Below, piece after piece: positions 38,382 through 63,017 of a stretch of 64,000 nt of DNA (positions are counted from its first letter, which is position 1; the number at the start of each line of letters is the position of its first letter). The DNA is from an unidentified bacterial endosymbiont. Its GTDB lineage: Bacteria > Pseudomonadota > Gammaproteobacteria > Enterobacterales > G038960095. Made by a program: the position numbers and the translations under genes. The stretch lies in assembly GCF_918320885.1 (NCBI RefSeq), contig NZ_OU907312.1, positions 1,364,465 through 1,428,464 on the forward strand. The letters are read 5' to 3'. The notes under the pieces are model-generated. The model was given only the letters and a program-made list of their open reading frames with translations, was not told where the DNA came from and made no database searches.

Positions 38382-38383
38382 CA

Positions 38384-41202: not shown

Positions 41203-41213
41203 GGAGTTACTGG

Positions 41214-41543: not shown

Positions 41544-41586
41544 CCAACTCACCCTAGAACAGGCCCTGTGGTGGCTAGAGGAGTAA
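41497..41586 (+). CDS. GpE'-like extension frame of the tail assembly chaperone
   Basis: 29 codons, LARELHFQPSEIDQLTLEQALWWLEE after the first three, ending TAA 41584. The HFQPSEIDxLTLxxALWW pattern is the P2 GpE' family. The frame is offset by +1 (equivalent to -2) from gpE and is open back to about 41400. It is probably translated as a frameshift fusion rather than alone. I could not identify the slip site with confidence. Confidence 0.65.
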   Translation: MKRLARELHFQPSEIDQLTLEQALWWLEE

Positions 41587-41589
41587 CCG

Positions 41590-43785
41590 ATGGCACGTGA
41601 TATCGCAATGGGATTGGTCATCGGCGGTGCGGTCGATGGCTCACTTGGCAAAGCTGTCAAACAGGCAGGCTCACAGCTTGAGGCGCTACAGCAGCAAGCC
41701 GCCAAACAGCGACTCTGGCAACAGACCATTGGGGAGACCCAACAGCTACAGCGCGATTTCCAGCGGCTAAAACTCAGTGGGGATGATGCCGCTACCGGCA
41801 TCCAGCGGCAGCTGGAAAGCAACCTCCTCACGCTAAAAAAAGCGGGCATTGAGCTACAGAGCCTGGATCAGGCCTATCAGCAACTGGGGCGGACTGCCAA
41901 AGGATTAGAGCTGCGGGCCAGTGGTCATCAACTCATCAGCCAGGGGATGGCTCAGGGGAAACAGGCCCTTGGCGATGCCCTAAAATTAACCGCCACCGTA
42001 GCGGTACCGACCCTGTTATCAGCCAACTACCAAGATTTGATCCGCGATATCGTGATCAAAGCCGGGCAGGCCGGCACGGCTGAGGAGGCCCGCATTGGCC
42101 AATTGATTGCTAAGACCGCCTCAGAGGTTGGGATAGCGCGCAATGAACTGGCCGAAGCGCTCAACCAGATGGTCGGGGCCGGGATGGAATTGCAGCAAGC
42201 AGTCCAATTGGCACCCAGTCTGGCCAAGTTCTCCGTCAGCCAACGCTCGGAGAGCAGCGATACCGCCCGCATGATGACCGCCATGGTGCAGAATGCCGGC
42301 ATTGTCGATCCGCAACAGATGCAACAGGCGTTAGAGTCAATTGCCTATTTGGGCAAAGAGGGCTCATTTGAGGCCTCCGATATGGCCAAATGGTTCCCAC
42401 AAATCTTAGCGGAGACCAAGAAGCTAGGCATTACTGGCGTTGAAGCCATAGTCAAAGCCGGGGCTGCCTTACAGGTGATGATGAAGGTCTCTGGCTCCAG
42501 TGATGAAGCGGCCACCATCCTGAAGAACTGGATGTCCAAGATGGGTGCCATGGAGACCAAAGAGCGCTATACAAAGGTTGGCATTGACTACCCAGCGGTG
42601 ATGCAGCAGTTTATTCAGAAAGGCTGGGATCCCCTACTGGCCTCCTTTAAGCTCGTCCAGCTGTATATTGAGAAAAGCGATCCCGAAGAAGCTGCCAGGA
42701 TGTCCAAAACCCTGGCAGCGATCGACCAAGAGAGCAATCAGGCGAAAAAGCAGGCGATGCTGAAAGCCTTCGCTGAATCGATGAAAGCGGGCGATCTCTT
42801 TACCAACCAATACACCAAAGCCGCTCTCACGGCAGCGATGCAAAATGAGGCCCTGCTACATCAACTGGTAAAGGGAGCAAGCGGGGTGAGCGGTGAACTA
42901 GACAAAGATTTACGCGATCGCCGCGTGATGTCCAAACAGATCTGGGCTGAGGTTGTGCAAGCCTGGGATGAAGCCGCACGACAGGTGGGGGATGCCCTAC
43001 GCCCCCTGACCGACACCGTTGGCAGCCTGCTGAAACAGCTCGGCCTAGGGCTAGCTAACCTAGCAGAAAAAGCACCGCTGGCGATAGCCGCCATCACCAC
43101 CTTAGCTGGTGGCTTTATCGGCTTAAAAGCCCTACAAGCCAGCTGGAGTATCGGCAAAGGCGCAATGGCAGTCGCCAAGGGCACCTTATTAGGAGGGATA
43201 GCTAAAGTCCAACCAGGGGGTATCAGCAATTTAGGCAAATCCACACTAGGTAAAGTGGGAGGTGCCCTTGGCAAAGCTGGCGGCTATCTGGGGGGTGCCT
43301 TAGCTCTCGGGAGTACGGCTTATCAAATCTATGACACTGCTCAGCACGCCACCACCAGTGCCGAAAAAGGGGCCGGTTACGGCGATGCCGTCGGCGGCTT
43401 AGCGGGGGGCTTAGCTGGTGCTAAATTAGGCGCCTTAGTCGGCGCCTGGGGCGGCCCCATCGGTATCGCCATTGGCGGGGTACTCGGTAGCGTGGTGGGC
43501 ACCCTAGGCGGTGGTCAATTAGGTGGCTGGTTAGGGAAATCACTATTTGGCAGTGAATCCCCGCTGCCAGAGGCAGCTCATCCAGCTATCAGCGTACCCG
43601 ATAAGCCGCCAGCAGCGGTCAATCAGCAGCTACAGTTTTCACCAACGGTACAAGTCACCGTGCAGGGTGAGATGAAAGATCCCAAGCAACTCGCCAACGA
43701 TCTGATGCCCCACTTGCACAGCCTATTCGAACAATTTCACCAGCAGCAACAGCGCACCGCATGGTATGATACCGCACATAGTTAA
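41590..43785 (+). CDS. Tail tape measure protein (GpT)
   Basis: 731 residues. N-terminal coiled coil (QAGSQLEALQQQAAKQRLWQ), the TP901/Mu-type core (TASEVGIARNELAEALNQMVGAG, YLGKEGSFEASDMAKWFPQIL), and glycine/alanine-rich hydrophobic segments near the C-terminus (GDAVGGLAGGLAGAKLGALVGAWGG). It sets tail length and may help DNA cross the inner membrane. Confidence 0.92.
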   Translation: MARDIAMGLVIGGAVDGSLGKAVKQAGSQLEALQQQAAKQRLWQQTIGETQQLQRDFQRLKLSGDDAATGIQRQLESNLLTLKKAGIELQSLDQAYQQLGRTAKGLELRASGHQLISQGMAQGKQALGDALKLTATVAVPTLLSANYQDLIRDIVIKAGQAGTAEEARIGQLIAKTASEVGIARNELAEALNQMVGAGMELQQAVQLAPSLAKFSVSQRSESSDTARMMTAMVQNAGIVDPQQMQQALESIAYLGKEGSFEASDMAKWFPQILAETKKLGITGVEAIVKAGAALQVMMKVSGSSDEAATILKNWMSKMGAMETKERYTKVGIDYPAVMQQFIQKGWDPLLASFKLVQLYIEKSDPEEAARMSKTLAAIDQESNQAKKQAMLKAFAESMKAGDLFTNQYTKAALTAAMQNEALLHQLVKGASGVSGELDKDLRDRRVMSKQIWAEVVQAWDEAARQVGDALRPLTDTVGSLLKQLGLGLANLAEKAPLAIAAITTLAGGFIGLKALQASWSIGKGAMAVAKGTLLGGIAKVQPGGISNLGKSTLGKVGGALGKAGGYLGGALALGSTAYQIYDTAQHATTSAEKGAGYGDAVGGLAGGLAGAKLGALVGAWGGPIGIAIGGVLGSVVGTLGGGQLGGWLGKSLFGSESPLPEAAHPAISVPDKPPAAVNQQLQFSPTVQVTVQGEMKDPKQLANDLMPHLHSLFEQFHQQQQRTAWYDTAHS

Positions 43786-43830
43786 TCGATGCACTGCCCT
43801 GGAAACCGCTAGCGCAGTGAGGACTGCTAG

Positions 43831-44778
43831 ATGGCAAAAAAATCTCAACATCATGATCTGTTTTACAAAAGCTTTATGCAGGAAAAGCAGCTGGTCATCG
43901 ATTTTCTAAAGATTCATTTACCCAAAGAGATTCAACGATTAATGGATTTCTCCACCTTAACCTTGGTGAATCATGAGCTACTACCGGCCCCGCTTAAAAA
44001 ATTGCAATCTGATGTGGTTTTTCAGTGCAAAATTAACCAGGGCGAAGATGATCTTTACCTGATCATCGAGCACCAATCCGCCTCTCATCGCCTAATGCCG
44101 CTAAGAATGCACGAATACATCACGGCATTAATGCGTTATCATTTAAAGCAAGGCAACCGCAAACTGCCGCTGGTGCTGCCAGTGCTCGTCTATCACGGCC
44201 ACCCATCTCCCTACCCCGTTTCATCCGAACTATGGGATCTATTTAACCAGCCGCAGTTAGCCGAGCAAATCATGTTTAAAGCGCACCAAGTCATTGATAT
44301 TTCAGCCATGACCGATGAAGAGATCGCCTCTCATGGAGCGGCTGCCTTGCTGGAATGGCCCCTGCGCGATGCCAAAAACCGCGGAGAGCACTTTCTAGAT
44401 AAAGTAAAAAGCCAACTGCACCAGCTGTTTGCTAGTGATAGGCTGGATAATTTTCCTGACTTTAAGCTGGCCCTTTACAGGTATATACTATTAACGTATA
44501 GAGGGTCAAAATCACTTGATGAGGTGATCGACGAGCTGACCCAGGTAGCACCGGAGGAGAAAGAGGCGATGCTAACAGCAGGACAACAATTAGAGCAGCG
44601 TGGGATGCAGGCTGGCATGCAACAGGGTATGCAACAGGGTATGCAACAGGGTATGCAACAGGGTGTTCAACAAGAGAAGTATGAGATAGCCAAGCGTATG
44701 TTGAAGAAAGGCATGTCGCTAGAGGATATTGTGCAGATCACTGGATTGGCTAAAAAAGAGTTATCACACCTGCATTGA
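43831..44778 (+). CDS. Rpn-family recombination-promoting nuclease (PDDEXK)
   Basis: 315 residues. HHDLFYKSFMQEKQLVIDFLKIHLP, LQSDVVFQCKIN and YLIIEHQSASHRLMPLRMHEYI are the Rpn/YhgA PDDEXK-type core (Asp and Glu-x-Gln active site). The C-terminus has four perfect 12-bp repeats (44617-44664, ATGCAACAGGGT) giving MQQG repeats, then KRMLKKGMSLEDIVQITGL. Rpn proteins are DNA endonucleases that raise RecA-independent recombination. It is not a tail gene and has been inserted between T and U. Confidence 0.9.
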   Translation: MAKKSQHHDLFYKSFMQEKQLVIDFLKIHLPKEIQRLMDFSTLTLVNHELLPAPLKKLQSDVVFQCKINQGEDDLYLIIEHQSASHRLMPLRMHEYITALMRYHLKQGNRKLPLVLPVLVYHGHPSPYPVSSELWDLFNQPQLAEQIMFKAHQVIDISAMTDEEIASHGAAALLEWPLRDAKNRGEHFLDKVKSQLHQLFASDRLDNFPDFKLALYRYILLTYRGSKSLDEVIDELTQVAPEEKEAMLTAGQQLEQRGMQAGMQQGMQQGMQQGMQQGVQQEKYEIAKRMLKKGMSLEDIVQITGLAKKELSHLH

Positions 44779-44837
44779 TTAGGGGGTAGTGCTACTGAAC
44801 TCGCTGATACGAATGCAATCAAACCACGGGGTGTTGT

Positions 44838-45740
44838 ATGTCAAACACCTCGATTATTAACCTCATCTCTCAATCGACCACTGCCATTGCCGGTGCTGCT
44901 GGCCAGACCCATCGTTTTAGTGAGCTAGTCACGCAATCCCACGCCGACGGCAGTGCACTACGCGTGGCTGCTCAGAGTAGCTCAGCGCTCTCTGGGACTG
45001 CTAGTCAATTATCCACCCTGGCTAAACTGGTCTCAGCCGGGGGGAGCTCATCGGCTGATCGGAACGCCATCACGCGGGGGATCTCACGGATGGGCGCTGG
45101 ATTAGCTGAGATCGACCGCAGCCTGCGGCTGGTAAATCAAGGGATCAACACCGCGGTCAACACTAACAGCCAGTTAAGTGCTTCTGCCCAATCAATCAGC
45201 CAAGCTAAACAGGCTGTCAGCAGCAGCTTGCAGGCCCTGCAGAGCAAGCTGGGGAGCGGCCAAGCGCTAGGCCAACGGCAGAGCATCGTTCAACGGAGCT
45301 CAACTTTAATGCCCACGTTGACCGGGCCTCGCTCTCATTTGCTGGTCTTGATCGCTGAACAGGGGCAGCGCTACTTTTTTGGATTAACGACCGCCGCCTT
45401 TGACAAACTACAGCGCAAAATTAGCTATAACGTGATCGCACAAGAGCGTTTGGGGAGACCCGATGCCTTACAAGCGGTCAATCAAGGGGGTGAAACCATC
45501 ACCTTGAGTGGCGTGGTCTTTACCCAGTTTTCTGGTATTGCTCAGTTAGATGCGTTGCGAGAGATTGGCTTCCAAATGAAGCCGGTCGAATTGGTGATGG
45601 GCTATGGGGATGTCTTGGGACGCTGGTATCTCACGGCCATTGATGAGGAACAGCAAGCGCTACTAGCGAATGGCGTGCCCCGCAAACAGAGCTTCAGCGT
45701 GGAGTTTAAACGCTATGGCGACGATTATACGAAGTTCTGA
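44838..45740 (+). CDS. Phage tail protein GpU with N-terminal extension
   Basis: 300 residues. The C-terminal 140 residues (HLLVLIAEQGQRYFFGLTTAAFDKLQRKISYNV, GGETITLSGVVFTQFSG, GYGDVLGRWYLTAIDEEQ) are the P2 U family. The N-terminal 155 residues are Ser/Ala/Gln-rich and helical and are not part of P2 gpU. It lies between tape measure and X as in P2. Confidence 0.87.
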   Translation: MSNTSIINLISQSTTAIAGAAGQTHRFSELVTQSHADGSALRVAAQSSSALSGTASQLSTLAKLVSAGGSSSADRNAITRGISRMGAGLAEIDRSLRLVNQGINTAVNTNSQLSASAQSISQAKQAVSSSLQALQSKLGSGQALGQRQSIVQRSSTLMPTLTGPRSHLLVLIAEQGQRYFFGLTTAAFDKLQRKISYNVIAQERLGRPDALQAVNQGGETITLSGVVFTQFSGIAQLDALREIGFQMKPVELVMGYGDVLGRWYLTAIDEEQQALLANGVPRKQSFSVEFKRYGDDYTKF

Positions 45741-45921
45741 AGGGGATCTCTTAGATACCCTGTGCTACGCTCATTACGGCCACTTAAACGGCACGGTAGA
45801 AGCGGTACTGAGGGCGAATCCTGGGTTGAGTGCCCTACCGCAACCCTACCCAGCAGGCGTCACCCTGCGCTTCCCTGAGCTGGCAGCTGCACGCAGCGAG
45901 ACCATCCACCTCTGGAGCTGA
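45715..45921 (+). CDS. Tail protein X (LysM-like)
   Basis: 68 residues from ATG 45715, overlapping the end of U. SEGDLLDTLCYAHYGHLNGTVEAVLRANPGLS is the P2 X pattern. It has a role in tail maturation. Confidence 0.88.
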   Translation: MATIIRSSEGDLLDTLCYAHYGHLNGTVEAVLRANPGLSALPQPYPAGVTLRFPELAAARSETIHLWS

Positions 45922-45924
45922 TCG

Positions 45925-46980
45925 ATGCGGCCCCTATTTCAAGTCATCGCGGATGCCCAGGATATCACCCCCCTACTTCAAGATCGGCTCCTGAGCTTGC
46001 AGGTGATCGATCGGGTCGCTTTGGCGGCAGATAGCTGTGAAATCAAACTAGATGATCGTGATAGCAAGATTGCTTTTCCGCGCAAAGGTGCTTGCTTAAC
46101 CCTCTCCTTGGGCTGGCAAGGCAGCGGTTTAACAGTAATGGGCCACTATACTATCGATGAAATTGAACTCACGGGCCCACCGCGTACAGTAACACTACGG
46201 GGCACCTCGACCGCGATGGCGGGGACCGCTAAAAACAGTCGCTCGCAAGCTTGGGAACAGGTGACATTGTCACATATCGTCCAAGCGATTGCCGCCCGCC
46301 AAGGTTGGATAGCCACTTGCCCGATTGAAACCCTGGTGACCCGTGCTGATCAAGTGGGGGAATCTGATTTAAATTTTTTAAGCCGTTTAGCCCGCCAATA
46401 CAACGCCACCGCCACCCTCAAGGCGGGAAAATTGCTGGTGCTACCCCGGGCGGCTGGCAAGCAGGCTAGTGGCGGAGAGTTACCGCTGGCGAGCTTAACC
46501 CTCCATGAGGTGGCTAATTTTCGGTTGCTGTTTCCTAATCGAACGAGCGTCGCCAAGGTCCTTGCCAAAGCCCATGATAGCCAAACCGGACAGCAGGTGA
46601 CCATTGAAATCCCCAATCCAGAGGCTCCCATCACTTCAGCAGGGGCAGTACATGCTGAACGGCATACCTACGCGAATGCCAGCCTAGCTACCGCAGCGGC
46701 CCAGGCCGCCCTCGCCCGCTTAAATCGAGAGACTGCCAGTGGCACGCTGGAGCTGCGCGGCCGTGGAGACTTAGTGGCAGAGAAGTTCATCAAACTAAGT
46801 GGTTTTAAAACAGAGGCAGATGGAGTTTATCTCATCGAATCAGTGACCAACCACTTTACACAGCGCAGTTGGACTACCTCAATTGAGATTTCAGCAGGTC
46901 AATCAGGGAAAGCAAACCTGGGGCAGCCCTCAAAACCACAACCACCCCTGCTGATTGAGATCCCTGAAGCGCCTCAGTAA
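45925..46980 (+). CDS. Late control/tail hub protein GpD
   Basis: 351 residues. QVIDRVALAADSCEIKLDDRD, GHYTIDEIELTGPPRTVTLRGT, ESDLNFLSRLARQYNATATLK and VYLIESVTNHFTQRSWTTSIE are the P2 D/VgrG-like hub motifs. It is the last recognisable phage gene. No lysis genes follow. Confidence 0.92.
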   Translation: MRPLFQVIADAQDITPLLQDRLLSLQVIDRVALAADSCEIKLDDRDSKIAFPRKGACLTLSLGWQGSGLTVMGHYTIDEIELTGPPRTVTLRGTSTAMAGTAKNSRSQAWEQVTLSHIVQAIAARQGWIATCPIETLVTRADQVGESDLNFLSRLARQYNATATLKAGKLLVLPRAAGKQASGGELPLASLTLHEVANFRLLFPNRTSVAKVLAKAHDSQTGQQVTIEIPNPEAPITSAGAVHAERHTYANASLATAAAQAALARLNRETASGTLELRGRGDLVAEKFIKLSGFKTEADGVYLIESVTNHFTQRSWTTSIEISAGQSGKANLGQPSKPQPPLLIEIPEAPQ

Positions 46981-47325
46981 GGATCGCTGGCCATCATCGC
47001 TTGGTAGACTATATAGTTGCCCTAGGGATCTATTTGAATAATATGATCAAAGACTTTCAAAAAATAAAGTCTATAGGAAAATAGAAACAATTTTTATAAG
47101 TTATTTAGACGGGTTTTAAGTAAATCTTTTTAATACAATTGATATTCCATCAAACGGTCGATTGTTGTAAACATGCCTTGCAATTTGGCCAATTTCATGA
47201 GTGCGAAAATTGTGATTAAAGCAGATTTAGCGGTAGGCCATTACAGCCAAGGTTTCCCCAAACCAGCAATATACACATCCACCCTCACTGGCTATTATCC
47301 ATTGTGGAGAGCGGGTTGGTTGCCG
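46981..47325. other. Non-coding stretch after the last phage gene
   Basis: About 345 bp with an AT-rich part at 47020-47170. I see no supported gene. A frame at 47173-47418 runs through the terminator and has no family resemblance. No lysis cassette or tRNA was found. Confidence 0.4.
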
Positions 47326-47339
47326 GCTGCCGCTGCTCC
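47326..47339 (+). other. Candidate prophage right attachment site
   Basis: GCTGCCGCTGCTCC here is identical to 59908-59921 and differs by one base over its last 12 from the module edges at 8521-8532 and 17963-17974. Those three sites are where the sequence shared by the recombinase modules stops. The site lies in the loop of an inverted repeat (GGAGA...TTGGT / ACCAATCTCC, 47307-47350). It is the natural place for the far end of the prophage whose integrase is at 18372, but the match is short. Confidence 0.4.
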
Positions 47340-47352
47340 ACCAATCTCCAGG

Positions 47353-47383
47353 CCTCAGCCGTTCTCTGCTGAGGTTTTTTTTT
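47353..47383 (+). terminator. Rho-independent terminator
   Basis: Stem CCTCAGC / GCTGAGG (7 bp) with an 8-base loop, followed by nine T. It separates phage DNA from the cdiB promoter region and would stop late phage transcription from running into the CDI operon. Confidence 0.85.
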
Positions 47384-47657
47384 CGCCCAACCCCGCGCCA
47401 TTGGGCACGCGCTGCTGATCGTTCCGGACTTTGCCTTCCAGCTCCCCTACCCCGTTAAGCCCTTATTTTGCTCTCTGAGGACCGATGTTCTCCAAAACGA
47501 GAGCGCCGAGAAATGTCGAAGTCCGGACGCACCTATTTTTTTATCCCTTTAAAAACAACCGATTACTTACAGACTCAGCGATGCCATTTATTCCCAGCAT
47601 TGCCTAGCAACCCAAAATCACTAACCATCCATTAATATTGTTCAATCATTAATTTTA

Positions 47658-47686
47658 TTGTCACACCAAAATATTCCAGCTAGAAT
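47658..47686 (+). promoter_or_regulatory. Sigma-70 promoter for cdiB
   Basis: TTGTCA (47658-47663), a 17-bp spacer and TAGAAT (47681-47686) give a good -35/-10 pair. Transcription would start near 47693, giving a leader of about 40 nt before the TTG start of cdiB. The region upstream (47384-47657) is non-coding; part of it near 47500-47660 is AT-rich. Confidence 0.6.
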
Positions 47687-47734
47687 TTCACCTCATTACG
47701 AACTTTTCGGTTTATCACCAGGGAAGGTATTTAG

Positions 47735-49516
47735 TTGTTATCTTCTAGCCTGACTACACTTTGGCGACACCGCTTATTTGGCCTTAACGCCATCAGACGC
47801 TCCCTTATCTCACTGATCCTGAGTGCCCTGCTAGGCACCTCACTACCAGCCTCTGCGGTAGCGCCCGAGCCTGCTGCCCAACAGCAACAAGCGCGTGAAC
47901 AGGAGCGTGAACTGCGGCAACAGCAAGAGAGCGTCCCTGATGTACACCTACAGCCGACCCCCTCACCCGAGCTGCTGCAGCGCCTTCCTGCTGACGAAAC
48001 CCCTTGCTTTAAGATTAAACAGCTGCAACTCCAGGGCGAGGCCGCTCAGCAGTTTCAATGGGCCTTAGCCGCCGCTCACCGCGCGGGGAGTGCTCCAGAT
48101 AGCCCGCTGGGTCGCCGGCTGGGGGCTAACGGCATCAACTTGATCCTCAAGCGGGTGCACCATGCCATCGTGCAGCGCGGCTTTATCACCACTCAGGTGG
48201 TGGCAGAGCCACAAAACCTGGCCAGTGGCACCTTGGTGCTCACACTCATTCCTGGACGCTTGCATCGTCTCTATTTTTCAGAAAAGTCTGATAAGCAGGC
48301 TAGACACTGGAACGCCCTGCCCGCCAAGCCTGGTGATCTACTCAATTTACGGGATATCGAGCAAGCCTTAGAGAACTTTAAACGACTCCCCAGCGTTACC
48401 GCCACCTTCCAAATTGCCCCTGCCAGCGATCCAGAGGCTCCAGCGGGCACCAGCGATCTGATAATCACCTGGCAACAGCAGCTGCCGCTACGCGGAACGC
48501 TCTCTTTAGAGGATTCTGGCAATCCGCTGACTAAAAAACACCAAGGGGGCTTTACCCTAGCCTACGATCAACCCTTGGGGTTCAACGATCTATTTTATAT
48601 CAATCTGCATCAAGGCTTCGGTGGTTGCTCGGTAGGCCGGGGGATCACCCGCGGGCATACCCTGCACTATGGGCTACCCTGGGGCTACTGGTTCTTAGAG
48701 TTCACCCACACGCAAGAGGCCCATGACTACAGTCAACGGCCCGATCGCCTCGATCTCCGCAGCGGCGGCAGTGCTCGCTCAGAGGCCAAGCTAGCCCGCC
48801 TGCTCTACCGCGATGCCCGGCGTAAAACCACCCTCTCCTTCAAAGGCTTTCGCCGGAACAATCACAGTGGCTATAAACTTTTAGGCATCGACTCACCTCT
48901 CCAGCGGCACGCGCTCGGCGGCTGGGGCAGCACACTGGCGCATCGGGAATTTATTGGCAAGGCGATCCTCGATGCCAGCCTCAGTTATCAACGGGGCACC
49001 GGTGCTTTTGGTGCCCAAGCGGTTCCTGAGAACACCCGGGAGGGAACCCCGCGCTTTAAAGTGATCACTCTAGAGCTCTCCTGCAAACTGCCGGTGCAGA
49101 TTGCACAGCTGGCCTGTCACTACCACGGCAATTGGAACGCACAATACAACCGTACACCATTGCCTCCCTCAGAGCGCTTTAGTATCGGCAGTCGCCACAC
49201 CGTCCGGGGTTTTGGGTATAGTGATCCGCTGCTCCCACTCTCCTCGGAGCGCGGTTGGTGGCTACGCAATGAGTTTGGTGTCGCCTTGGGTCACACCGGC
49301 TCTGAGCTCTATCTGGGGCTGGATTACGGCCAAGTCAGCGGCTCCCTCGCCCACGATTTAACAGAGGGCCGCCGCCTCGCCGGTGCTGCCCTCGGCCTGC
49401 GAGGCAATTTAAAGGGCCTAAGCTATACGCTGTTTACCAGCTGGCCGCTGAAAACAACCCGAAACTTTACCGGCTCCCGCAATCTCTGCGGCTTTAGCCT
49501 GCTCTACAACTTTTAG
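47735..49516 (+). CDS. cdiB: CdiB/ShlB-type outer-membrane transporter (TpsB)
   Basis: 593 residues from a TTG preceded by GGGAAGG. N-terminal signal peptide (SLISLILSALLGTSLPASAVA). A Gln-rich linker is followed by a POTRA_2 domain from about residue 90 (CFKIKQLQLQGE). The C-terminal beta-barrel has the conserved VRGF at 490-493, LRNEFGVALG and GLDYGQV. It is an Omp85-type pore that exports TpsA partners across the outer membrane. It is followed by two genes with TPS domains, so all three probably form one operon. Confidence 0.94.
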   Translation: MLSSSLTTLWRHRLFGLNAIRRSLISLILSALLGTSLPASAVAPEPAAQQQQAREQERELRQQQESVPDVHLQPTPSPELLQRLPADETPCFKIKQLQLQGEAAQQFQWALAAAHRAGSAPDSPLGRRLGANGINLILKRVHHAIVQRGFITTQVVAEPQNLASGTLVLTLIPGRLHRLYFSEKSDKQARHWNALPAKPGDLLNLRDIEQALENFKRLPSVTATFQIAPASDPEAPAGTSDLIITWQQQLPLRGTLSLEDSGNPLTKKHQGGFTLAYDQPLGFNDLFYINLHQGFGGCSVGRGITRGHTLHYGLPWGYWFLEFTHTQEAHDYSQRPDRLDLRSGGSARSEAKLARLLYRDARRKTTLSFKGFRRNNHSGYKLLGIDSPLQRHALGGWGSTLAHREFIGKAILDASLSYQRGTGAFGAQAVPENTREGTPRFKVITLELSCKLPVQIAQLACHYHGNWNAQYNRTPLPPSERFSIGSRHTVRGFGYSDPLLPLSSERGWWLRNEFGVALGHTGSELYLGLDYGQVSGSLAHDLTEGRRLAGAALGLRGNLKGLSYTLFTSWPLKTTRNFTGSRNLCGFSLLYNF

Positions 49517-49581
49517 GAGCACGGTGCCCAATAGCGTGGTCCAGTCATAAATACCCTTGATAGGGACATTAGGAGTCAGGT

Positions 49582-52500
49582 ATGAATCAGCGCTGTTTTC
49601 GGGTTATCTTCAATCGACCACGCGGCCAAGCGATCGTCGTCGGCGAACTGGCGCGGACGCCAGGTCACGTGAGTAGCGCTGGCAGCGTGCCCAGACAGTC
49701 CCGGTGGCGCTGCTGTACCCTGCCTCTCGTTTTGATCGTCACCCTCGGCTGGATGCCTGGAGCGGACGCCACTATCGTCGCCGATGCCAACGCCCCAAGC
49801 GCCCAACAGCCCAACGTCGTCACCGCCCCCAATGGGGCCTCACCCCTGGTCAATATTCAAACACCCAATGCCGCCGGGATCTCACATAACACCTATAGCC
49901 GCTTTGATGTCGAGCCAGCAGGGGCCATTCTCAATAACAGCCGCCAAGCGGTGCACACCCAGTTAGCCGGCACTATCGCTGGCAACCCTCACCTCACCAC
50001 TGGCCCCGCCCAGATCATTCTGAATGAAGTCAACTCCAGCAACCCCAGCCTGTTGCGGGGCTTTATCGAGGTGGCCGGGCAACGAGCCCACGTGGTCGTA
50101 GCCAATCCCTCAGGGATTTATGTCAAAGGGGGTGGCTTTATCAACACCAGTGGTGTCACCCTGACCACCGGTACCCCACAATTGCAAAATGGGCACCTCG
50201 ACAGCTATCGGGTGATCGGTGGTCTCATTAAGATTGATGGTGAGGGGTTAGATGCCCGCTCCGCCGACTACACCCAAATCTTTGCCCAAGCGGTGCAACT
50301 GAATGCGGCAGTGCACGCCAAAAAACTGATGGTCACCACCGGCAATAACCTCGTTAAAGTGGATAACGAGAAAGCTACTCCAATCGCCAGTAATACTGAA
50401 GCACCTGAGTTTGCGCTTGATGTCGCTAAACTGGGTGGTATGTATGCCCATCATATTTTCATCGTGGGTACTGAAAACGGCGTTGGCATGCGTAATAGCG
50501 GCACACTGCAGGCAACTTCTGGCAACCTGAAAATTGATAACCAAGGCTGGTTAACTAACCATGGGAATCTACAGAGTTACGGTGATCTGCAAATAAAACT
50601 GAACGGTAATGACCATACTCAGAGCTTCTGTGATCCACAAGTAAGAATGGCCGGTAGTAAACGGACTGTCCGTACCACCATTGCTGCCGATGCTACTGCA
50701 CCAAAAACGCAACAGCCAAGTGTATCAATGGCAGTTAATAAGGTGCCGCTGGTAGATATTCAGACACCTAATGCCGCTGGGGTCTCTTATAATATTTACA
50801 GCCGCTTTGATGTAGAACGACAAGGTGCTGTTCTAAACAACAGCCGTGATACAGTAGAGACGCGCTTAGCGGGCACCATTGCTGCTAATGCTAACCTGAC
50901 TAACGGCCCCGCCCGCCTCATTCTTAATGAGATCAATTCAAGTGATCCTAGTTATCTGCGTGGTGCCCTCGAGGTAGCGGGTCAAGGTGCTCAAGTGATT
51001 ATTGCCAACCCCTCAGGGATTTATGTTGAAGGGGCTGGCTTTATCAATACCAGTGGCGCCATGCTCATGACCGGTAAACCACAGTTCCGAGAGGGTCATC
51101 TGGATAGTTACTGTGTAACTGGTGGTATCGTTCATATCAGCGGGAAGGGATTAGATACACGGGGTACCGACCATACTCAGATCTCGGCACAAGCTGTGCA
51201 ACTGAATACTAAATCACATGCGGAAAAGCTAACGATTACTACCGGCAACAACCTTATTAAAACAAACAATGGCCACAATACCCCGATTGCCAGCAGTAAC
51301 CAGCCTTCTGCCTTTAACCTCAGTGTGCTTAGACAGGGGGGGATCTATGCCAAACAGATTTTTATCGTTGGCACCCAGGTAGGAACGGAGATTCGCAATG
51401 ACGGTATTTTGCAGACCAAGAACGGTGATCTGAACATCACTAACCAAGGATGCTTAACCAGCCGTGGTGTCCTACAGAGTGGCCGTGATCTGAAAGTAAA
51501 AGTGATCGGTCGTAACCACACTTTCAGGATCACCTCGTCGGAACTCCGTGCTGCCAGCGAACTAGAATTAGATACCGAAGGCAAGCTTGATATACGTGAT
51601 AGCAAGATAATTGGTCATGCTAAGGGTGAGGTCACATTGAGCAGGAGCGATTGCTGCCCGGGATTACTGGTCATCCCGCTCTTGGACCACAACAACATCA
51701 ATATTAAACGGTTGCAAACCGACAGTACCTCTCTAGCAGCTCCCAGAGGGCTGAATAACTTTGGGCTGCTACAAGCAGGCCACCAGTTAACTCTGCAGGC
51801 TAACGCTATCCGCAATCATGCCGAAGGCGTTATCAACGCTACCCATACCCGGGTGCTAACGGATAAAGGCGAGAGTGGCTGGTTAAATAATCGCGGGCTG
51901 ATTGATGGTCAAACCACCGAGGTACGCGCCCACAGTCTAAATAATCTCGGCAGTGGGGTCATTTACGGTGACCAACTGCTGCTAGGTGCACACACCCTGA
52001 CCAATCATCGCGGACAGGTCAATGCCAATAATAAAGCGATCATCGCTGCCCGTCAGCAATTGACCATCGGTGCCCAGCATATTCTAAACCAGGAGGGAGC
52101 CCTTATCATGAGCGCCGGCCCGATGGCAGTCGGTGAACGTCTTGATGAGCAGCAACAGCTGGTAGGCCAGACTCTAGAGCTGAATAACAGTTCCGCCACC
52201 ATCGATGTCCAAGGCGATGCTCACTTTAATATCACTACCCTGAATAACAGTGATATCCATTTTAAGACCCACGAGGTACAAGTGAGCCATACCCAGGGAC
52301 ATCGACGTGTGGAGCGCAGCCCGCATATTGACAGACCGAATGACTACACCGCCTACGATTACAATACCACAATTACTGAAACCAGAATCGCCCAGCAAGA
52401 TCCCGCAAAATTATTAATTGGTGGCAACCTAAGGCTGGAGGGTCATTGTCTTAACAATGATAAAAGTCAGGTCATCATGGGAGGAAGCATGACTGGCCCT

Positions 52501-52929
52501 TTGAAAACCATCAACAATCTCAATGAATCAGGCACTCGAATTATTGAAGATAGTGGTACAGCGCAATGGACTTATACTCGATGGCGGGGAGGCTTTAGAC
52601 AATATACTCAACGCTACTGGGATAACGCAGTACCCTACCATGCCCGCAGTCAGGAGCCTATCCAGATAACAGTAGCCCTAGAGCAGCGCAATACCCGGCC
52701 CCTTGGCAGTGGAGTAAAAATAACTGACCGCCCAGAGATTGTATTAGTCCAACCGACCGTAATCAGCGTGGCCGCTCTGAACCCTCGGGAGCAGGATAGC
52801 TCTCTCAACACCAATAACACTGAGGCGGTGCCTACCCCAAATGATTTATCCACTGCACGACCCATTGTGCTTGAGCAGCCAAGTCTGCCTGCTGATCTTG
52901 AGGCGGATTTGGCGACCATGTCCCACTAA
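49582..52929 (+). CDS. Short TpsA/FHA exoprotein with two tandem TPS domains
   Basis: 1115 residues, AGGAG upstream. ESPR extended signal (MNQRCFRVIFNRPRGQAIVV) and cleavage near GADA (residue 64). TPS domain 1 spans about 66-290 (VNIQTPNAAGISHNTYSRFDV, NPSGIYVKGGGFINTSG). A second complete TPS domain starts about 358 (TTIAADATAPKTQQ, VDIQTPNAAGVSYNIYSRFD, NPSGIYVEGAGFINTSG) without its own signal. A short FHA-repeat region follows, and the protein ends at a unique proline/threonine-rich tail (LEQPSLPADLEADLATMSH). It lacks the receptor-binding, pre-toxin and toxin regions of cdiA. DNA for the second TPS domain is more AT-rich than the first. Confidence 0.88.
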   Translation: MNQRCFRVIFNRPRGQAIVVGELARTPGHVSSAGSVPRQSRWRCCTLPLVLIVTLGWMPGADATIVADANAPSAQQPNVVTAPNGASPLVNIQTPNAAGISHNTYSRFDVEPAGAILNNSRQAVHTQLAGTIAGNPHLTTGPAQIILNEVNSSNPSLLRGFIEVAGQRAHVVVANPSGIYVKGGGFINTSGVTLTTGTPQLQNGHLDSYRVIGGLIKIDGEGLDARSADYTQIFAQAVQLNAAVHAKKLMVTTGNNLVKVDNEKATPIASNTEAPEFALDVAKLGGMYAHHIFIVGTENGVGMRNSGTLQATSGNLKIDNQGWLTNHGNLQSYGDLQIKLNGNDHTQSFCDPQVRMAGSKRTVRTTIAADATAPKTQQPSVSMAVNKVPLVDIQTPNAAGVSYNIYSRFDVERQGAVLNNSRDTVETRLAGTIAANANLTNGPARLILNEINSSDPSYLRGALEVAGQGAQVIIANPSGIYVEGAGFINTSGAMLMTGKPQFREGHLDSYCVTGGIVHISGKGLDTRGTDHTQISAQAVQLNTKSHAEKLTITTGNNLIKTNNGHNTPIASSNQPSAFNLSVLRQGGIYAKQIFIVGTQVGTEIRNDGILQTKNGDLNITNQGCLTSRGVLQSGRDLKVKVIGRNHTFRITSSELRAASELELDTEGKLDIRDSKIIGHAKGEVTLSRSDCCPGLLVIPLLDHNNINIKRLQTDSTSLAAPRGLNNFGLLQAGHQLTLQANAIRNHAEGVINATHTRVLTDKGESGWLNNRGLIDGQTTEVRAHSLNNLGSGVIYGDQLLLGAHTLTNHRGQVNANNKAIIAARQQLTIGAQHILNQEGALIMSAGPMAVGERLDEQQQLVGQTLELNNSSATIDVQGDAHFNITTLNNSDIHFKTHEVQVSHTQGHRRVERSPHIDRPNDYTAYDYNTTITETRIAQQDPAKLLIGGNLRLEGHCLNNDKSQVIMGGSMTGPLKTINNLNESGTRIIEDSGTAQWTYTRWRGGFRQYTQRYWDNAVPYHARSQEPIQITVALEQRNTRPLGSGVKITDRPEIVLVQPTVISVAALNPREQDSSLNTNNTEAVPTPNDLSTARPIVLEQPSLPADLEADLATMSH

Positions 52930-53047
52930 AATCATTATTCTCAGGTTGAAATCGATGCAGATTTCACTGACCATTTCAATCAATAGAAGTTATTACAGGA
53001 CTAATCACTAGTCTATAACCAGTAGCTAGGGATCTCAGGAGCATCAT

Positions 53048-56000
53048 ATGAATCAGGGCTGTTACCGGGTAATCTTCAATCAAAAACGTGGCCAAACGAT
53101 GGTGGTGGGCGAACTAGCCAGAACGCCAGGCCAAGCAAGCCGTTCGAGCACTCCAACCGCCCGGTGGCTACGCTGTGCCCAGCCCCTGGTGTTTACATTC
53201 ATCCTCGGTTGGAGCGCCCTCACCCAGGCAGCCATCGTGGCCGACAGCAACGCCCCAGCCGCGCAACAGCCCAGCGTCGTGACCGCCCCTAACGGGGCCC
53301 CGGTGGTCAATATTCAAACCCCCAATGCCGCAGGTGTCTCCCACAACACCTATAGCCGCTTTGATGTTGAACAACCCGGCGCAGTCCTCAATAACAGCGC
53401 CGCCGCCACCCAAACCCAGCTCGCGGGAGCGATTGCCGGCAATGCTCACTTGGCCAACGGCACCGCCCGCCTCATCCTCAACGAAGTCAACTCCAGCGAT
53501 CCCACGGTGCTGAGCGGGATGATTGAAGTGGCGGGACAAGGCGCCCACGTGGTGATAGCCAACCCCTCAGGGATTTATATCAATGGGGGCGGCTTTATCA
53601 ACACGACGGGAGCCACACTGACGACCGGTCAACCACAGTTTAAAAACGGGCAGCTCGACAGCTATCGGGTGACCAGCGGTACCATAAAGATTGAGGGTCA
53701 AGGCTTAAATAGTCGCGATACCGACTATACGGCGATTATGGCACGAGCGGTTGAGGTGAACAGCCACCTCCAGGCCAAAAAATTAACGATAACTACCGGT
53801 AGCAACCAGGTGCAGGCCGATAATAACCAAGCAACGCCGATAACCACGACTGAAGCTGCCCCCACGGTAGCGCTGGATGTCGCCCAGCTGGGTGGTATGT
53901 ATGCCGAGCATATTTTTATCGTCGGCACGGAGGCTGGTGTTGGCATCCGCAATGCGGGGCGACTGACAGCCTCTACCGGCTCTGTGGTGGTCAATAGCGA
54001 CGGCTGGTTGACACACACCGGTCTAGTGGTCGCCAGAGAGAACGTCAATCTACAGGCCCAGCAAACGCTCACCCTACAGGGAGAAATAAAATCGGGTGGC
54101 ACACAAAGCTATCAGGGCAGCACCCTAGAGGGGATGGGGGTTACCTTAAAAGGCCAATCGCTCACCCTGCAAGCCACCCAGGGCGCGCTGCAGCTACCCG
54201 GGGCCACTCTGGAATCCCAGCAGACCCTAACCTTAACCACCCCAACCGTCCTGAACACGGATGCCGCCACCCTGAGAGCCGAAAAACTACAACTGAGTGC
54301 CCGGGACTTAAGCAATATTGGGGGTAACTTAGTTCAGCATGGCCCAGAAGATTTGCCATTGAAAATGACTGGGACCCTGGATAATAGCAACGGTCGGATT
54401 GCCAGTAACAGTCACCAGCTGACTCTCCAGGCACAAACGGTGAACAATCAGGGCGGCCGAATCGAGCATGCCGGGCAGGGTGATCTACAGATAGAAGCAC
54501 AAACACTTTTAGGACAGCGGGGTCATTTTGGCAGTAACAGTGCCGTCGTCCTTCGCACCGCACAAGCCGAGCTGCAGCAGGCCACCACCCAGGGCACCCA
54601 AGTCACCCTCAACGGCAAGCCTTGGCAGCCCAGCCACGAGGCGCTAGCAACGCTAGGCAACCAGAGCCTGCAGCCCTACCCGACCGCTTTACGGGAACGG
54701 GTCTCCACTCTGCCGTTAGCGCTGACGTTGCCGACTAGCGGCCTGTTCTCGGTCAATACCCAGCCTGGAGTTCCCCTAGTCACCACCGATCCAAAATTTA
54801 TACGGCAGCGGCAGTATGTCAGCTCTGAGCGGTTACTGAGAGCGCTCAAGGTCGACTTGAAAAACCTACCGAAGCCCTTTGGCGATGGCTTTTATGAGCA
54901 GCAGCAGCTGCGTGACGCCGTCATTCAAATGACTAGCCAGCGGTTTATCGGCGATTACCAGGATGATGATACGCAATATCGAGCGCTGATAGCCAATGCC
55001 ATTAGTGCGGCTAAAACGCTGCAGCTACAGCCTGGCGTGCCGCTATCCAACACCCAGATGGCTCAACTCACCCGGGATATCGTCTGGCCGGTACAAGCCT
55101 CAGTCCAGGCACCCGATGGCAGCCAGGTGCAGGTTTTAGCACCACAGCTCTATCTAAGAGTTCCCGAAGGCACTATTGGCGCTGGGTACGGCTCACTGAT
55201 ATCGGCGAAGAACATCCTGCTTGATCTCAGTGGTAATTTCACCGGTAACGGGACGACGCTGGCCCGCGACACCCTATCCATCACTGCTGAAAACATCCAC
55301 CATCAGGGCGGAACACTCTACGGTGGAAAGACCCACCTCAAGGCGCGCCAAGATATCAACCATCAGGGCGGCCTAGTGAGCGGCGACACGCTATTACAAG
55401 TTGAGGCGGGCAGAGACGTCACGGCGGAAACTACCACCGTCACCACCACTGGCGGCGATCCCAACGGCAGCAGTTATAGCAGCCATACCAATTTAGGCCA
55501 ACGAGCAAAGCTGCTGGTCAGGCAAGCAGGCGGTGTGATGGCGGTCCAGGCGGGACGCGACGCTAACCTGGTGGCTACCCAGATATTGAACGCTGGCGAG
55601 GGCGGCCACACACAGATAAGGGCTGGCCACGATCTCAAGCTGAGCACTGCCCAGGTCGGACAACACGAGCAACTCATCTGGGATGAGAACAACCACCGGG
55701 TTGAAGGGGGCTACCGAGATGTCGGCAGCCAAATCAAAACCGTCGGCACCCTGCAGCTCCACGCGGGCAATAAACTCACCGCCACCGCTGCCCAGGTAGC
55801 CAGTGGAGTTTCCGCCCAGTCAGTCGCCGCGCTCGTTCAGGGGCCCCTTGCCCTAGAGCAGGAGGGCAGCGGTGCTGCCCCTCTCGTGTCGACCGAGCAG
55901 TCCCTGGAGGCACAACTCGCCGCCGGCACGTTACAGATGAGTGCTAAAAGCATTGAAATTCTTCCTGGTCAAGCCACTCGCTACTTGGATGAAGCGCACC

Positions 56001-59000
56001 AGAAAACCCATAGCGGGCTTTTTAATGATAAAACGACCACCTCACGCATCGTCCAGCAAGAGACCATCGCTTTGGGGAGCCAATTCATTGGCACACAAAC
56101 GGAGATGGTTGCCACCGAAGGCGATCTGCGAATCCACGGCTCCAGCGTCCTGGGAGAGCAAGGTACTACCTTGATAGCCCAAGAGGGCAATATAAAAATC
56201 ACCAGTGCTGAAAATCGCCAACGGCAAATCAGCTACCATCAGGTAGAAGAGAGTGGGCTACTCACCGGGGGAGGCGCTGCTTTGACCTTAGGCGAGCGCG
56301 AGAGCAGCCAGCAGCAAGAGCTCGAGGGCACTCAGCAGCAGAGCAGTGCGGTGGGCAGCCTGTTGGGTGATGTGCGCATCTGGGCCAAGCAGAAATTCCA
56401 GCAACTGGGCAGCCACCTGATCACCCCCCAGGGTGATATTAACGTCTCAGCGGCCACGATAGAGGTCCTAGACACCCACCACCAGCAGCAACTCACCCAG
56501 GAAAGTAGCAGCAGCACCAGCGGCTTCACCATGAGTGTCAGCAACCCGGCCGTGAGCGCTCTCCAAACCGCTCAACAGCTGCAGAGCGCTGTCGGCCAGA
56601 CTAGCGACCCCCGGATGCACGCCCTAGCTGCCGCGGCCGGCGGCCTGGCCGCCAAGAACACCTATGATGCCCTGCAGTGCAATCCGCAACAACTAGGTGG
56701 AATTAACGTCACCACCACCTTCGGCAGTAGTGAAAGTCACAGTGAAAGCAGTGAGCATCACACCACCTCCCAGCGCTCGCTGGTGTCCGGCCGCAGGGTT
56801 ATCATTCAAGCTAGAAGCGGAGATGCCACGATACAGGGCGACCTGCAAGCTCAGGAGCTAGCAAGGATAGCCGCCGCCGGCAATCTAAAACTACTGGCCA
56901 GTGAAAACCGCGGCCAGCAGGAGAGCAGCCAGAGCTCCAGCAGCCAGTCATTCGGTGTTGGCCGAGGCATCGTAGTGGGAATGAGTGAAGGCGAAGGCAG
57001 CAGCCAAGGGGAGAGCTGCCGGTACCAACTCGCCCAGGTACACGCTGGCCAGAAAGTCGAGTTAGAGAGTGGCGGCGATACCCTCGTGCAGGGGGTGGTG
57101 AGCGCCCCGCAAATCCAAGCGGCTATTGCCGGCAACCTCACGATTGAAAGCCTGCAAGACACCGACCACCAGGAGGGCGAACAGCAGCAGATTGGGATAA
57201 ACCTAGATATCGGTCCCATGGTGAGTGGCAGCCTGAATTTCAACCAAAGTGACTACCGCAGCGATTTTAAAAGCGTCCAGCAGCAGGCAGGCCTCGAAGC
57301 GGGCGACCTGGGTTATCAACTGGATGTTAAAGGCAACTTCCACCTGGGAGCCGGCGGCCTCAAAAGCAGTGCAAAGGCAGTGACCGCCGGCCGCAATAAA
57401 GCCAGAGCCAGCACCTTAACCCAGAGCCAGCTTGACAACTATGACAAGCATAACGCCCAGAGCATCAGTGGCAGCATCGGTTTTAGCCAACATCCCCAGA
57501 AGCCAGGGCAGCCCGCCCTGCAGGATGGGGGTGTTGGCAAAAACCAGTCAGGGCAAGCCGCTCCAGGAGCCCTGCAGGTACCGGGCAGTGGGCTGCCGAG
57601 CCACCATGGCCTCTCCGCTACCATACCCATCGTCACAAACGCCCGCGGCAGCGCCAGCAGTACCACCCGCAGTGTGATTAGTGGCGCCAGGCAAGCCGTG
57701 ACCATTACCAATCCCGCTGCTCAACTAGCACTCACCGGCCAAACTCCAGAGCAGGCCATCGCCGCCTTCGATGCCAGCGTCACCAGTGATAAGGACAGCA
57801 GCAACGCACTGTCCAACAGCTTCAACCTAGAAGAGATAAAAGCGGGCTTCCAGATTGTCGAGGCTCTCACCCGCGAAGTCGGCACTTTCCTAGACAATCG
57901 AGCTAAGGAGCAGACGAAAACGCAAACGGACTTAACCGAGGAGCAAGGCAAAGCGCTCGAGCAGCAAAATACCCAAAAAATAGCAGCGCTACAGGAGCGC
58001 TTACAAGAGAACCAGCTGTGGGAGATGGGCGGCAAAGGACGTATTCTGATGAGCGCCCTCTCCCTCGCCGCCGGCAGTAATATCACCGGCAGCACCGGCC
58101 AACTGTTGCAAGCGGCCACCGTGAACGTCATTCAAAGCTACGGCGCCCAGCAGATTAAGTTGCTAGCCGACAGCATGAATAGTGAAGTGGCCCGCACTGC
58201 CCTGCAGGGGCTACTGGCTGGCGCTGGCGCCGCCGCCCAAGGACAGAGCGCCACCCCAGCGGCCCTGGGGGCCAGTGCCAGCGTGGTCCTGAACAACCTC
58301 ATAGACAGCGCCTATGGGGAAACCAGCAGCACTCTCAGCCTAGCGGAGCGCGAAGCCCGCAAAAACCTCGTCTCCACCCTCATCACCGGTACCACCCAGG
58401 CTATCGGCGGCGAGGCGGCACTGGCCAATGCGGCGGCCACGCTGGAGATGGAAAACAACTATCTAAGCCGGGCGCAATGCAGCCGGAGAAATCAGGAATT
58501 ATCTGAAGGTGAAAATCTGCTTCATAAGGCCGCTATCCGGGCCAAGTGGGATTTAATTGACACTGGACAGGATGTTAGCTTTAGAGCAGGAGAGATAGCT
58601 GGTATCCCTGACACCCTGTATGAGGCTGTAGAGGGGATAGTCAATGCAGCATTGAGCCCTCATGAAACTTACCTATCACTCAAGTCTCTGTTTGATAGCG
58701 ATAATGTACTGGGGACCGTCTCTGAAGCCGTAAAACAATCTTATATTGCCCGCCTCGATAAAATGGACGCCGAGTTCGAAAAAGCAGGCGCCAGTGGCTC
58801 CTTCAAAGCGGGATTAGAAAGTACTAAGCTAATTGCCGATATCGCCTCCTTGGCTGCCAGCGGTATTGGGGTTGCTAAGGGGGGTGTTGCCTTAACCAAT
58901 TTAGGCGTTAAAGCTGCCAAACAAGGCATCCAGTCTACCAAGACTGTCCGAGGACTAGCGACAGCCGCCAAACAAGGAACGACTGCTACAGTACCTAAAA

Positions 59001-59503
59001 TTCCCTCGAAGGTTACTGGCGTCAGTGATACACTGGCAGCAGCAAATTCGCTGAGCAAGGCAGGACACGTAGCTGCGAAACCACCTGGGATTAGCTCCAA
59101 TGCTGCCTCCTCTACACAACTAGGAACTGTAAATTTAGAGGGTGCAGCAAAGGGGACAATAAATATTATTGACTCAAGTAAATTTGATTATTTATTTGGT
59201 AAATCAAGTAGTAATGCACATAATGCAGCACGTTCTAATCAATTGGCTCTGGAAATGAAAAGACTAGGCATACATAATGATCAACTTGGCCGTGCAACAT
59301 TAACAAACCACTTACAATCAATAACTCAAAATACAAAAAGTATAATTAATAAATTCTCTAATATACATGGAAATTTTGAGGTTAGAGAATCGTTACTTAT
59401 GGGGCCATCAGGAAAAGCAGCGATGTTGCAGACAACTTTCCAGGTTATGTCTGATGGCTCTCATCGCTTTGTAACAGCCATTTCCTTCAGTGGAGCTAAA
59501 TAA
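53048..59503 (+). CDS. cdiA: Complete CdiA contact-dependent toxin
   Basis: 2151 residues; CAGGAGC upstream. ESPR signal (MNQGCYRVIFNQKRGQTMVV), cleavage near residue 61, TPS domain about 64-310 (NPSGIYINGGGFINTTG), FHA-1 repeats, a likely receptor-binding middle (about 570-720, KFIRQRQYVSSERLLRALK), FHA-2 repeats, and the pre-toxin with boundary MENN at 1801-1804. A helical entry region follows to GHVAA, then a variable C-terminal toxin (SKFDYLFGKSSSNAHNAARS, LLMGPSGKAAMLQTTFQV). I do not recognise its enzymatic class. It is the only cdiA here with all parts, so it is probably the expressed effector. The last base of its stop overlaps the next ATG. Confidence 0.95.
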   Translation: MNQGCYRVIFNQKRGQTMVVGELARTPGQASRSSTPTARWLRCAQPLVFTFILGWSALTQAAIVADSNAPAAQQPSVVTAPNGAPVVNIQTPNAAGVSHNTYSRFDVEQPGAVLNNSAAATQTQLAGAIAGNAHLANGTARLILNEVNSSDPTVLSGMIEVAGQGAHVVIANPSGIYINGGGFINTTGATLTTGQPQFKNGQLDSYRVTSGTIKIEGQGLNSRDTDYTAIMARAVEVNSHLQAKKLTITTGSNQVQADNNQATPITTTEAAPTVALDVAQLGGMYAEHIFIVGTEAGVGIRNAGRLTASTGSVVVNSDGWLTHTGLVVARENVNLQAQQTLTLQGEIKSGGTQSYQGSTLEGMGVTLKGQSLTLQATQGALQLPGATLESQQTLTLTTPTVLNTDAATLRAEKLQLSARDLSNIGGNLVQHGPEDLPLKMTGTLDNSNGRIASNSHQLTLQAQTVNNQGGRIEHAGQGDLQIEAQTLLGQRGHFGSNSAVVLRTAQAELQQATTQGTQVTLNGKPWQPSHEALATLGNQSLQPYPTALRERVSTLPLALTLPTSGLFSVNTQPGVPLVTTDPKFIRQRQYVSSERLLRALKVDLKNLPKPFGDGFYEQQQLRDAVIQMTSQRFIGDYQDDDTQYRALIANAISAAKTLQLQPGVPLSNTQMAQLTRDIVWPVQASVQAPDGSQVQVLAPQLYLRVPEGTIGAGYGSLISAKNILLDLSGNFTGNGTTLARDTLSITAENIHHQGGTLYGGKTHLKARQDINHQGGLVSGDTLLQVEAGRDVTAETTTVTTTGGDPNGSSYSSHTNLGQRAKLLVRQAGGVMAVQAGRDANLVATQILNAGEGGHTQIRAGHDLKLSTAQVGQHEQLIWDENNHRVEGGYRDVGSQIKTVGTLQLHAGNKLTATAAQVASGVSAQSVAALVQGPLALEQEGSGAAPLVSTEQSLEAQLAAGTLQMSAKSIEILPGQATRYLDEAHQKTHSGLFNDKTTTSRIVQQETIALGSQFIGTQTEMVATEGDLRIHGSSVLGEQGTTLIAQEGNIKITSAENRQRQISYHQVEESGLLTGGGAALTLGERESSQQQELEGTQQQSSAVGSLLGDVRIWAKQKFQQLGSHLITPQGDINVSAATIEVLDTHHQQQLTQESSSSTSGFTMSVSNPAVSALQTAQQLQSAVGQTSDPRMHALAAAAGGLAAKNTYDALQCNPQQLGGINVTTTFGSSESHSESSEHHTTSQRSLVSGRRVIIQARSGDATIQGDLQAQELARIAAAGNLKLLASENRGQQESSQSSSSQSFGVGRGIVVGMSEGEGSSQGESCRYQLAQVHAGQKVELESGGDTLVQGVVSAPQIQAAIAGNLTIESLQDTDHQEGEQQQIGINLDIGPMVSGSLNFNQSDYRSDFKSVQQQAGLEAGDLGYQLDVKGNFHLGAGGLKSSAKAVTAGRNKARASTLTQSQLDNYDKHNAQSISGSIGFSQHPQKPGQPALQDGGVGKNQSGQAAPGALQVPGSGLPSHHGLSATIPIVTNARGSASSTTRSVISGARQAVTITNPAAQLALTGQTPEQAIAAFDASVTSDKDSSNALSNSFNLEEIKAGFQIVEALTREVGTFLDNRAKEQTKTQTDLTEEQGKALEQQNTQKIAALQERLQENQLWEMGGKGRILMSALSLAAGSNITGSTGQLLQAATVNVIQSYGAQQIKLLADSMNSEVARTALQGLLAGAGAAAQGQSATPAALGASASVVLNNLIDSAYGETSSTLSLAEREARKNLVSTLITGTTQAIGGEAALANAAATLEMENNYLSRAQCSRRNQELSEGENLLHKAAIRAKWDLIDTGQDVSFRAGEIAGIPDTLYEAVEGIVNAALSPHETYLSLKSLFDSDNVLGTVSEAVKQSYIARLDKMDAEFEKAGASGSFKAGLESTKLIADIASLAASGIGVAKGGVALTNLGVKAAKQGIQSTKTVRGLATAAKQGTTATVPKIPSKVTGVSDTLAAANSLSKAGHVAAKPPGISSNAASSTQLGTVNLEGAAKGTINIIDSSKFDYLFGKSSSNAHNAARSNQLALEMKRLGIHNDQLGRATLTNHLQSITQNTKSIINKFSNIHGNFEVRESLLMGPSGKAAMLQTTFQVMSDGSHRFVTAISFSGAK

Positions 59504-59852
59504 TGTTTATAGAGACATATCCTGATGAGTTAGAATTGCTGAATTTTTTTGAAGTAGAACCTGAGTTTAGTGACCCTATAGAAGGAAAGTATGCATATCG
59601 TGTTTCTGATAATAACAATTTAACCTTAATATTCTCATTTGCAGCTGTAGAAGGATGGATTCAGACTGTATTAGAATATAAAGGAATAATAATTCATCAA
59701 TGCCTCAGTGAAGGTGTTAAGAATTTTAATATAAAAGATATAGAGAAAAAAAATATCTTTTTTCAGAAATAATAATTAATGGTATAAAAATAGAAGTTGA
59801 AATAACAATAAATCCTTTTATATTAGTTAAATGGAATACATTATTAACATAA
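59503..59852 (+). pseudogene. cdiI: Cognate immunity gene with frameshift at A8
   Basis: ATG overlaps the cdiA stop (TAATG). The frame MFIETYPDELELLNFFEVEP, FSFAAVEGWIQTVLEY runs to a TAA at 59770-59772, giving 89 residues. Another frame continues without break as LFSEIIINGIKIEVEITINP FILVKWNTLLT to TAA 59850-59852. The two join at a run of eight A (59746-59753): nine A would give one protein of about 116 residues. Either the gene is broken, or slippage on the A run makes the full protein. By position it should protect against the SKFDYLFG toxin. Confidence 0.75.
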
Positions 59853-59907
59853 TCCTAAATTTTCAAATTAGACAACCGAGATACTACTTACGGCATCAGC
59901 AGCACCT

Positions 59908-60021
59908 GCTGCCGCTGCTCCTCCCACAGTAGCGGTGTATTAGAGGCTAGCATGAATAGGGTGACGGTGGATGGCAAAGTTTCATCAAGGATAGCTTCGA
60001 CGATGTCTGGAGCCAGGGTGG
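59908..60021 (-). pseudogene. Fragment of recombinase-operon HTH gene end
   Basis: About 110 bp nearly identical to 17961-18072, the 3' end of the HTH gene of the recombinase operon. It starts at the same module edge (GCTGCTCCTCCCACAG) and stops at 60019-60021, where it joins the cdiA pre-toxin block. It is a footprint of a third recombinase module that has been deleted. Confidence 0.8.
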
Positions 60022-61178: not shown

Positions 61179-61196
61179 AATATGTTTGGAGATAAA

Positions 61197-63006: not shown

Positions 63007-63017
63007 AATACCAGTTT

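Follow-up and report, generated by a model that had tools for sequence, protein, structure and literature searches.

The 64,000-nucleotide stretch of DNA analyzed here, referred to below as the window, carries a cdi locus in which genes follow one another closely (Table 1). It begins with a TpsB/CdiB transporter gene, continues with an open reading frame (ORF) for a TpsA protein that contains two TPS domains, here called the double-TPS protein, and proceeds to a full-length cdiA whose product has an ESPR and a single TPS domain of its own. The end of tpsB lies 65 bp from the double-TPS ORF, which is followed after 118 bp by cdiA. A promoter-like site precedes tpsB as a consensus match at most slightly above shuffled expectation, and consensus matching, itself weak against shuffled expectation, yielded no plus-strand terminator-like site between the double-TPS ORF and cdiA.

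Assembled into one contig of 1.66 Mb and scored 100% complete, the genome contains the double-TPS locus twice, with an identical protein product. A block of ~32 kb comprising prophage genes and the cdi locus is repeated on the opposite strand (G000:C1 ~1060801-1095098); identical IS3 copies lie at its edges, and a stretch at ~43775-45500 is variable. In the second copy, cdiA is broken by an IS3 element at the equivalent of window positions 58550-58553, while the window copy is open.

Table 1. Features of the double-TPS locus and its surroundings, in window coordinates
Feature	Coordinates	Strand	Evidence
Duplicated block (prophage genes and cdi locus)	32179..63914		Bounded by IS3 copies
Putative exchanged cassette (tpsB with its upstream region, signal, most of TPS1)	47335..50481	+	Also present at the paralogue locus G000:C1:1359699
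TpsB/CdiB transporter of 593 aa with TTG start (ShlB barrel, two POTRA domains)	47735..49516	+	PF03865 9.7e-71, PF17287, PF08479
Double-TPS TpsA, 1115 aa	49582..52929	+	Single frame; identical protein at second genomic copy
Extended signal peptide, residues 1-62, comprising ESPR and signal core	49582..49767	+	PF13018; hydrophobic core
TPS domain 1 (TPS1)	49768..50550	+	PF05860, 167.5 bits
Linker/junction, ~20 residues (345-364), predicted disordered	50614..50673	+	pLDDT below 50
TPS domain 2 (TPS2), without signal peptide	50677..51453	+	PF05860, 147.3 bits; AlphaFold2; Foldseek
Short tail, putatively beta-helical	51502..52926	+	Neither PF13332 nor a toxin family; 54% identical to paralogue 746-1088
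Full-length CdiA of 2151 aa with an ESPR and one TPS domain of its own	53048..59503	+	PF13018; PF05860, one stretch; PF13332

Anatomy of the double-TPS protein

In the usual view, a TPS domain acts a single time, at the front of its protein, where it docks on TpsB and starts beta-helix folding. A preliminary description of this DNA had proposed one signal peptide followed by two complete TPS domains, the second beginning near residue 358 and lacking a signal of its own. This layout is borne out: a single open frame runs from ATG to stop behind an AGGAG ribosome-binding site, with one ESPR match (PF13018, residues 1-40; Pfam, E 9.5e-8) and a hydrophobic signal core recognized by inspection, PLVLIVTLGWMPGADA, both ahead of TPS1 only, and with TPS2 starting at residue ~364. 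PF05860 matches the protein in two stretches (Pfam, whole-protein E 2.5e-87), as does the NCBIfam model adhes_NPXG, and in a six-frame genome scan both domains score far above the PF05860 cut-off of 33.5 bits. Chance likeness is excluded by the identity between TPS1 and TPS2, which reaches 60% at the protein level (E 2e-123) and 67% at the DNA level. TPS1 carries the motifs NPSG and NPHL; TPS2 keeps NPSG and has NANL for NPHL, a position at which the downstream CdiA reads NAHL.

After TPS2 come ~475 residues of tail, of which 718-1059 resemble the neighboring cdiA paralogue (54% over 346 aa) and in which AlphaFold2 predicts strands at low model confidence. Pfam and NCBIfam found neither FHA-2 repeats (PF13332) nor toxin families in the ORF, in keeping with the earlier view of a short, toxin-free protein.

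An extended Sec signal directly before a TPS domain, NPNG-like and NPNL-like motifs, and an adjacent cognate TpsB all identify the protein as a TpsA, even though it departs from the usual—but not strictly defining—trait of a TPS domain that occurs once, at the mature N-terminus. With type Vb TpsA proteins of the first TPS subfamily (FHA, ShlA/HpmA, CdiA) it has in common the ESPR-type signal, N-terminal TPS domain, adjacent TpsB, and, possibly, a beta-helical body; unlike them, it adds a second complete internal TPS domain and ends in a short tail without toxin or FHA-2 repeats. Similarly, its signal and its TPS domains fall into one in-genome clade with those of the downstream CdiA, within the same TpsB cluster, whereas the combination of FHA-2 repeats and C-terminal toxin that marks CdiA/BcpA effectors is absent.

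Simpler accounts of the second domain were rejected. An in-frame ATG at 50647 might offer TPS2 a separate translation start, but by inspection no clear ribosome-binding site lies upstream of it and no signal peptide downstream. Two separate genes, the arrangement that the preliminary description had set against its own reading, or a frameshift, are contradicted by one frame that continues uninterrupted, through the same junction, in both genomic copies of the assembly.

Predicted fold and rate of change of the second domain

AlphaFold2 modeled TPS2 from 21 sequences with pLDDT mostly 94-98 (~97) over the domain, which starts at residue ~365, N-terminal cap included, and Foldseek matched the model to HpmA (3fy3) at a TM of 0.90 and to FHA (1rwr) at 0.82, by target length. 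The domain is thus predicted to be a right-handed beta-helix with an N-terminal cap, a complete TPS fold; a missing cap, which the preliminary description had named as the structural sign against its reading, is not what the model contains. Modeling of the tandem was limited to residues 202-720, since a full-tandem alignment left TPS2 without depth. That model contains the end of TPS1, a low-confidence linker at 345-364, and TPS2 as a separate unit; its alignment is shallow over TPS1, and the relative orientation of the two domains is not to be read from it.

All four in-genome TPS domains form one group in a maximum-likelihood tree (100/100), where TPS2 is sister to the pair formed by TPS1 and the paralogue; its branch measures 0.59, as against 0.07 and 0.03 for theirs. 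With CdiA as outgroup, 47 unique residue changes fall to TPS2 and 15 to the paralogue (P=5e-5), and by this comparison TPS2 is changing about three times faster. Of 84 positions that other TPS domains conserve, it keeps 69; its siblings keep 81, 81, and 78. Changes by codon position number 39/34/66, and the continued excess at third positions indicates that constraint is relaxed rather than absent. The fast change may predate the tandem. The bias toward third positions, the retained NPSG, and the fact that the domain models perfectly mean that TPS2 may still be selected for some role.

Mosaic DNA and proposed origin of the tandem

The preliminary description also had TPS2 as the more diverged and AT-rich domain, imported from another paralogue. 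Divergence and composition stand, with the counts above and a GC content of 48% in TPS2 against 57% in the first 905 nt of the ORF. The import, by contrast, appears to have run the other way: the DNA points to the first ~900 nt, encoding the signal and most of TPS1, as the exchanged part.

The evidence comes from a third locus, at G000:C1:1359699, 4.8 kb before the start of the window, where a single-TPS cdiA cut by IS3 accompanies an intact TpsB that is 97.6% identical to the one in the window. The two loci are 96% identical over the tpsB upstream region and tpsB, and the third-locus cdiA matches the double-TPS ORF at 100% over nt 1-500 and at 90-98% to nt 900, after which identity collapses sharply. 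GC content drops in step, from 57% over nt 1-905 to 44% over nt 905-1035. This breakpoint and fall in GC at nt ~900 indicate that the signal and most of TPS1 were recently exchanged with such a locus. TPS1 is thus the newcomer, what lies past nt ~900 being different and more AT-rich, and TPS2 is its older and faster-evolving relative within the same in-genome paralogue clade. The last ~130 nt of the TPS1 module match TPS2 in composition, which suggests, from a short piece of sequence, that the tandem predates the exchange. The 60-nt junction DNA has no source elsewhere in the genome; by eye, it weakly resembles the stretch where the signal peptide ends (GWMPGA versus RMAGS), but the match is too short to weigh.

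Most likely, then, genes of one family recombined in such a way that an export-and-folding domain came to stand twice in tandem. Recombination among tpsA family genes also generates chimeras in the meningococcal tpsA/tpsC cassettes, where the 3' end is exchanged (PMC3848433); here, in contrast, the exchanged part is the 5' end including tpsB, and two TPS domains are left. The locus suggests that cdiB-cdiA 5' cassettes may be exchangeable as a unit, which would link a signal and a transporter to different sequence of the family.

Double TPS domains elsewhere

The double-TPS layout seems rare. Screens with PF05860 at the level of order, class, and phylum, in partly overlapping sets, found TPS-positive genomes in 116 of 395, 120 of 369, and 98 of 299 cases, respectively. 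Among the matches listed, the source genome was the only one in which a single frame contains two TPS domains separated by less than 1 kb, so the search for the arrangement elsewhere that the preliminary description had proposed brought up no other case. These screens scored the best 6-8 candidates per genome, with one genome per species, and a rare second example could have escaped them. The tandem itself, used as a query against 369 genomes, likewise gave no second double-TPS protein among the matches listed: four candidates with alignments extending past TPS1 (L058-L061) are each a single-TPS protein, and 17 named genome loci have a single TPS domain each. Plasmid and phage matches over most of the query proved to be one TPS domain matched twice, those listed spanning ~1.0-1.2 kb, and a first scan of genome contigs with the full double-TPS protein as query returned no match. 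Open-licence papers yielded no report of tandem or second TPS domains.

A probable chimeric TpsA and its alternatives

We favor, as the probable explanation, a chimeric, recombination-made, toxin-free TpsA of the CdiA/FHA family that is exported via TPS1 and carries TPS2 along as a cap. This reading draws on the two PF05860 domains, the breakpoint and GC change at nt ~900, and the tpsB-TPS1 cassette common to the paralogue; on the long branch of TPS2 within the in-genome clade, its 47 changes against 15, and its 69 of 84 conserved positions; and on the modeled cap, fold, and flexible linker in a protein with neither toxin nor FHA-2 repeats. Recombination would have placed a cassette of tpsB, signal, and TPS1, like that of the neighboring cdiA, in frame before older family sequence that still opens with a TPS domain of its own. 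TPS domains are recognized in an extended state by the POTRA domains of TpsB and probably nucleate folding outside (PMC5422565). Here, the ESPR signal would direct Sec export, TPS1 would engage the POTRA domains and likely nucleate folding outside, and TPS2, emerging later beyond the linker, would fold into a second capped beta-helix and close off the short tail, acting as cargo and not itself as a targeting signal. The product would be a short adhesin-like stub, either displayed or released.

The double-TPS protein presumably uses the same TpsB as the downstream CdiA. CdiA-family TpsA proteins compete for one shared TpsB in Burkholderia (PMC10449530), and by analogy the double-TPS protein could slow CdiA export. 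That documented competition, the operon-like cluster with one TpsB and one CdiA, and a TPS2 that is complete, capped, and in possession of most conserved positions would also fit a use for both domains, in which TPS2 docks on another POTRA site or another TpsB, or serves as an internal pause or folding seed, so that TpsB is occupied for longer and CdiA export is regulated or competed with. Yet competition requires one TPS domain only, TPS2 is evolving at about three times the rate of the paralogue, NANL stands in place of NPHL (though CdiA, too, departs there), and no relative of the same layout appears among the matches listed; we regard this use as quite improbable. The same low expectation attaches to selection having kept the tandem for both domains, in which case TPS1 would be an export module that is removable or initiates export, and TPS2 an internal folding seed or a second TpsB-engaging, CdiA-throttling site.

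Decay is a somewhat better prospect, albeit still an unlikely one. Fusion and truncation could have left a non-functional gene that has not yet gained a stop, as the missing toxin, truncated tail, relaxed constraint on TPS2, and IS3 insertions in neighboring cdiA genes might suggest; but the frame is open across 3.3 kb, start and ribosome-binding site are intact, as are both folds, and the tandem seems to have survived a later exchange and a duplication. Least credible of all is an assembly artifact in which two distinct genes were wrongly joined. Regional repeats—IS3 copies, paralogues, and the 32-kb duplication—are of a kind that misleads assemblers, but the junction is the same in both copies and has no other genomic source, the frame runs across it, and the genome is one complete contig.

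A natural second TPS domain in mid-protein provides a ready-made test of whether such a domain stalls export, re-engages TpsB, or simply folds in passing.

Prophage surroundings

Directly upstream of the cdi locus, positions 27888-46980 hold structural genes of a myovirus/P2-type prophage (terminase, portal, capsid, sheath, tape measure, gpU, gpD), for which no near match was found among phage records. The cdi locus may be prophage cargo. A transposase-like gene (phrog_3300; 43831-44778) sits between tape measure and gpU, at the edge of the stretch that differs between the block copies. Toward the start of the window, after an IS3 copy ending at ~350, an ORF at 321-4628 encodes an Ntox17 toxin domain together with FHA-2 repeats and appears to be the distal portion of an IS3-cut cdiA paralogue whose start lies ahead of the window. 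Finally, two related Toprim/D5-type primase-helicase genes (12206-13972 and 21648-24176) lie ~7.7 kb apart, end to start, a pairing that suggests two adjacent prophage replication modules.
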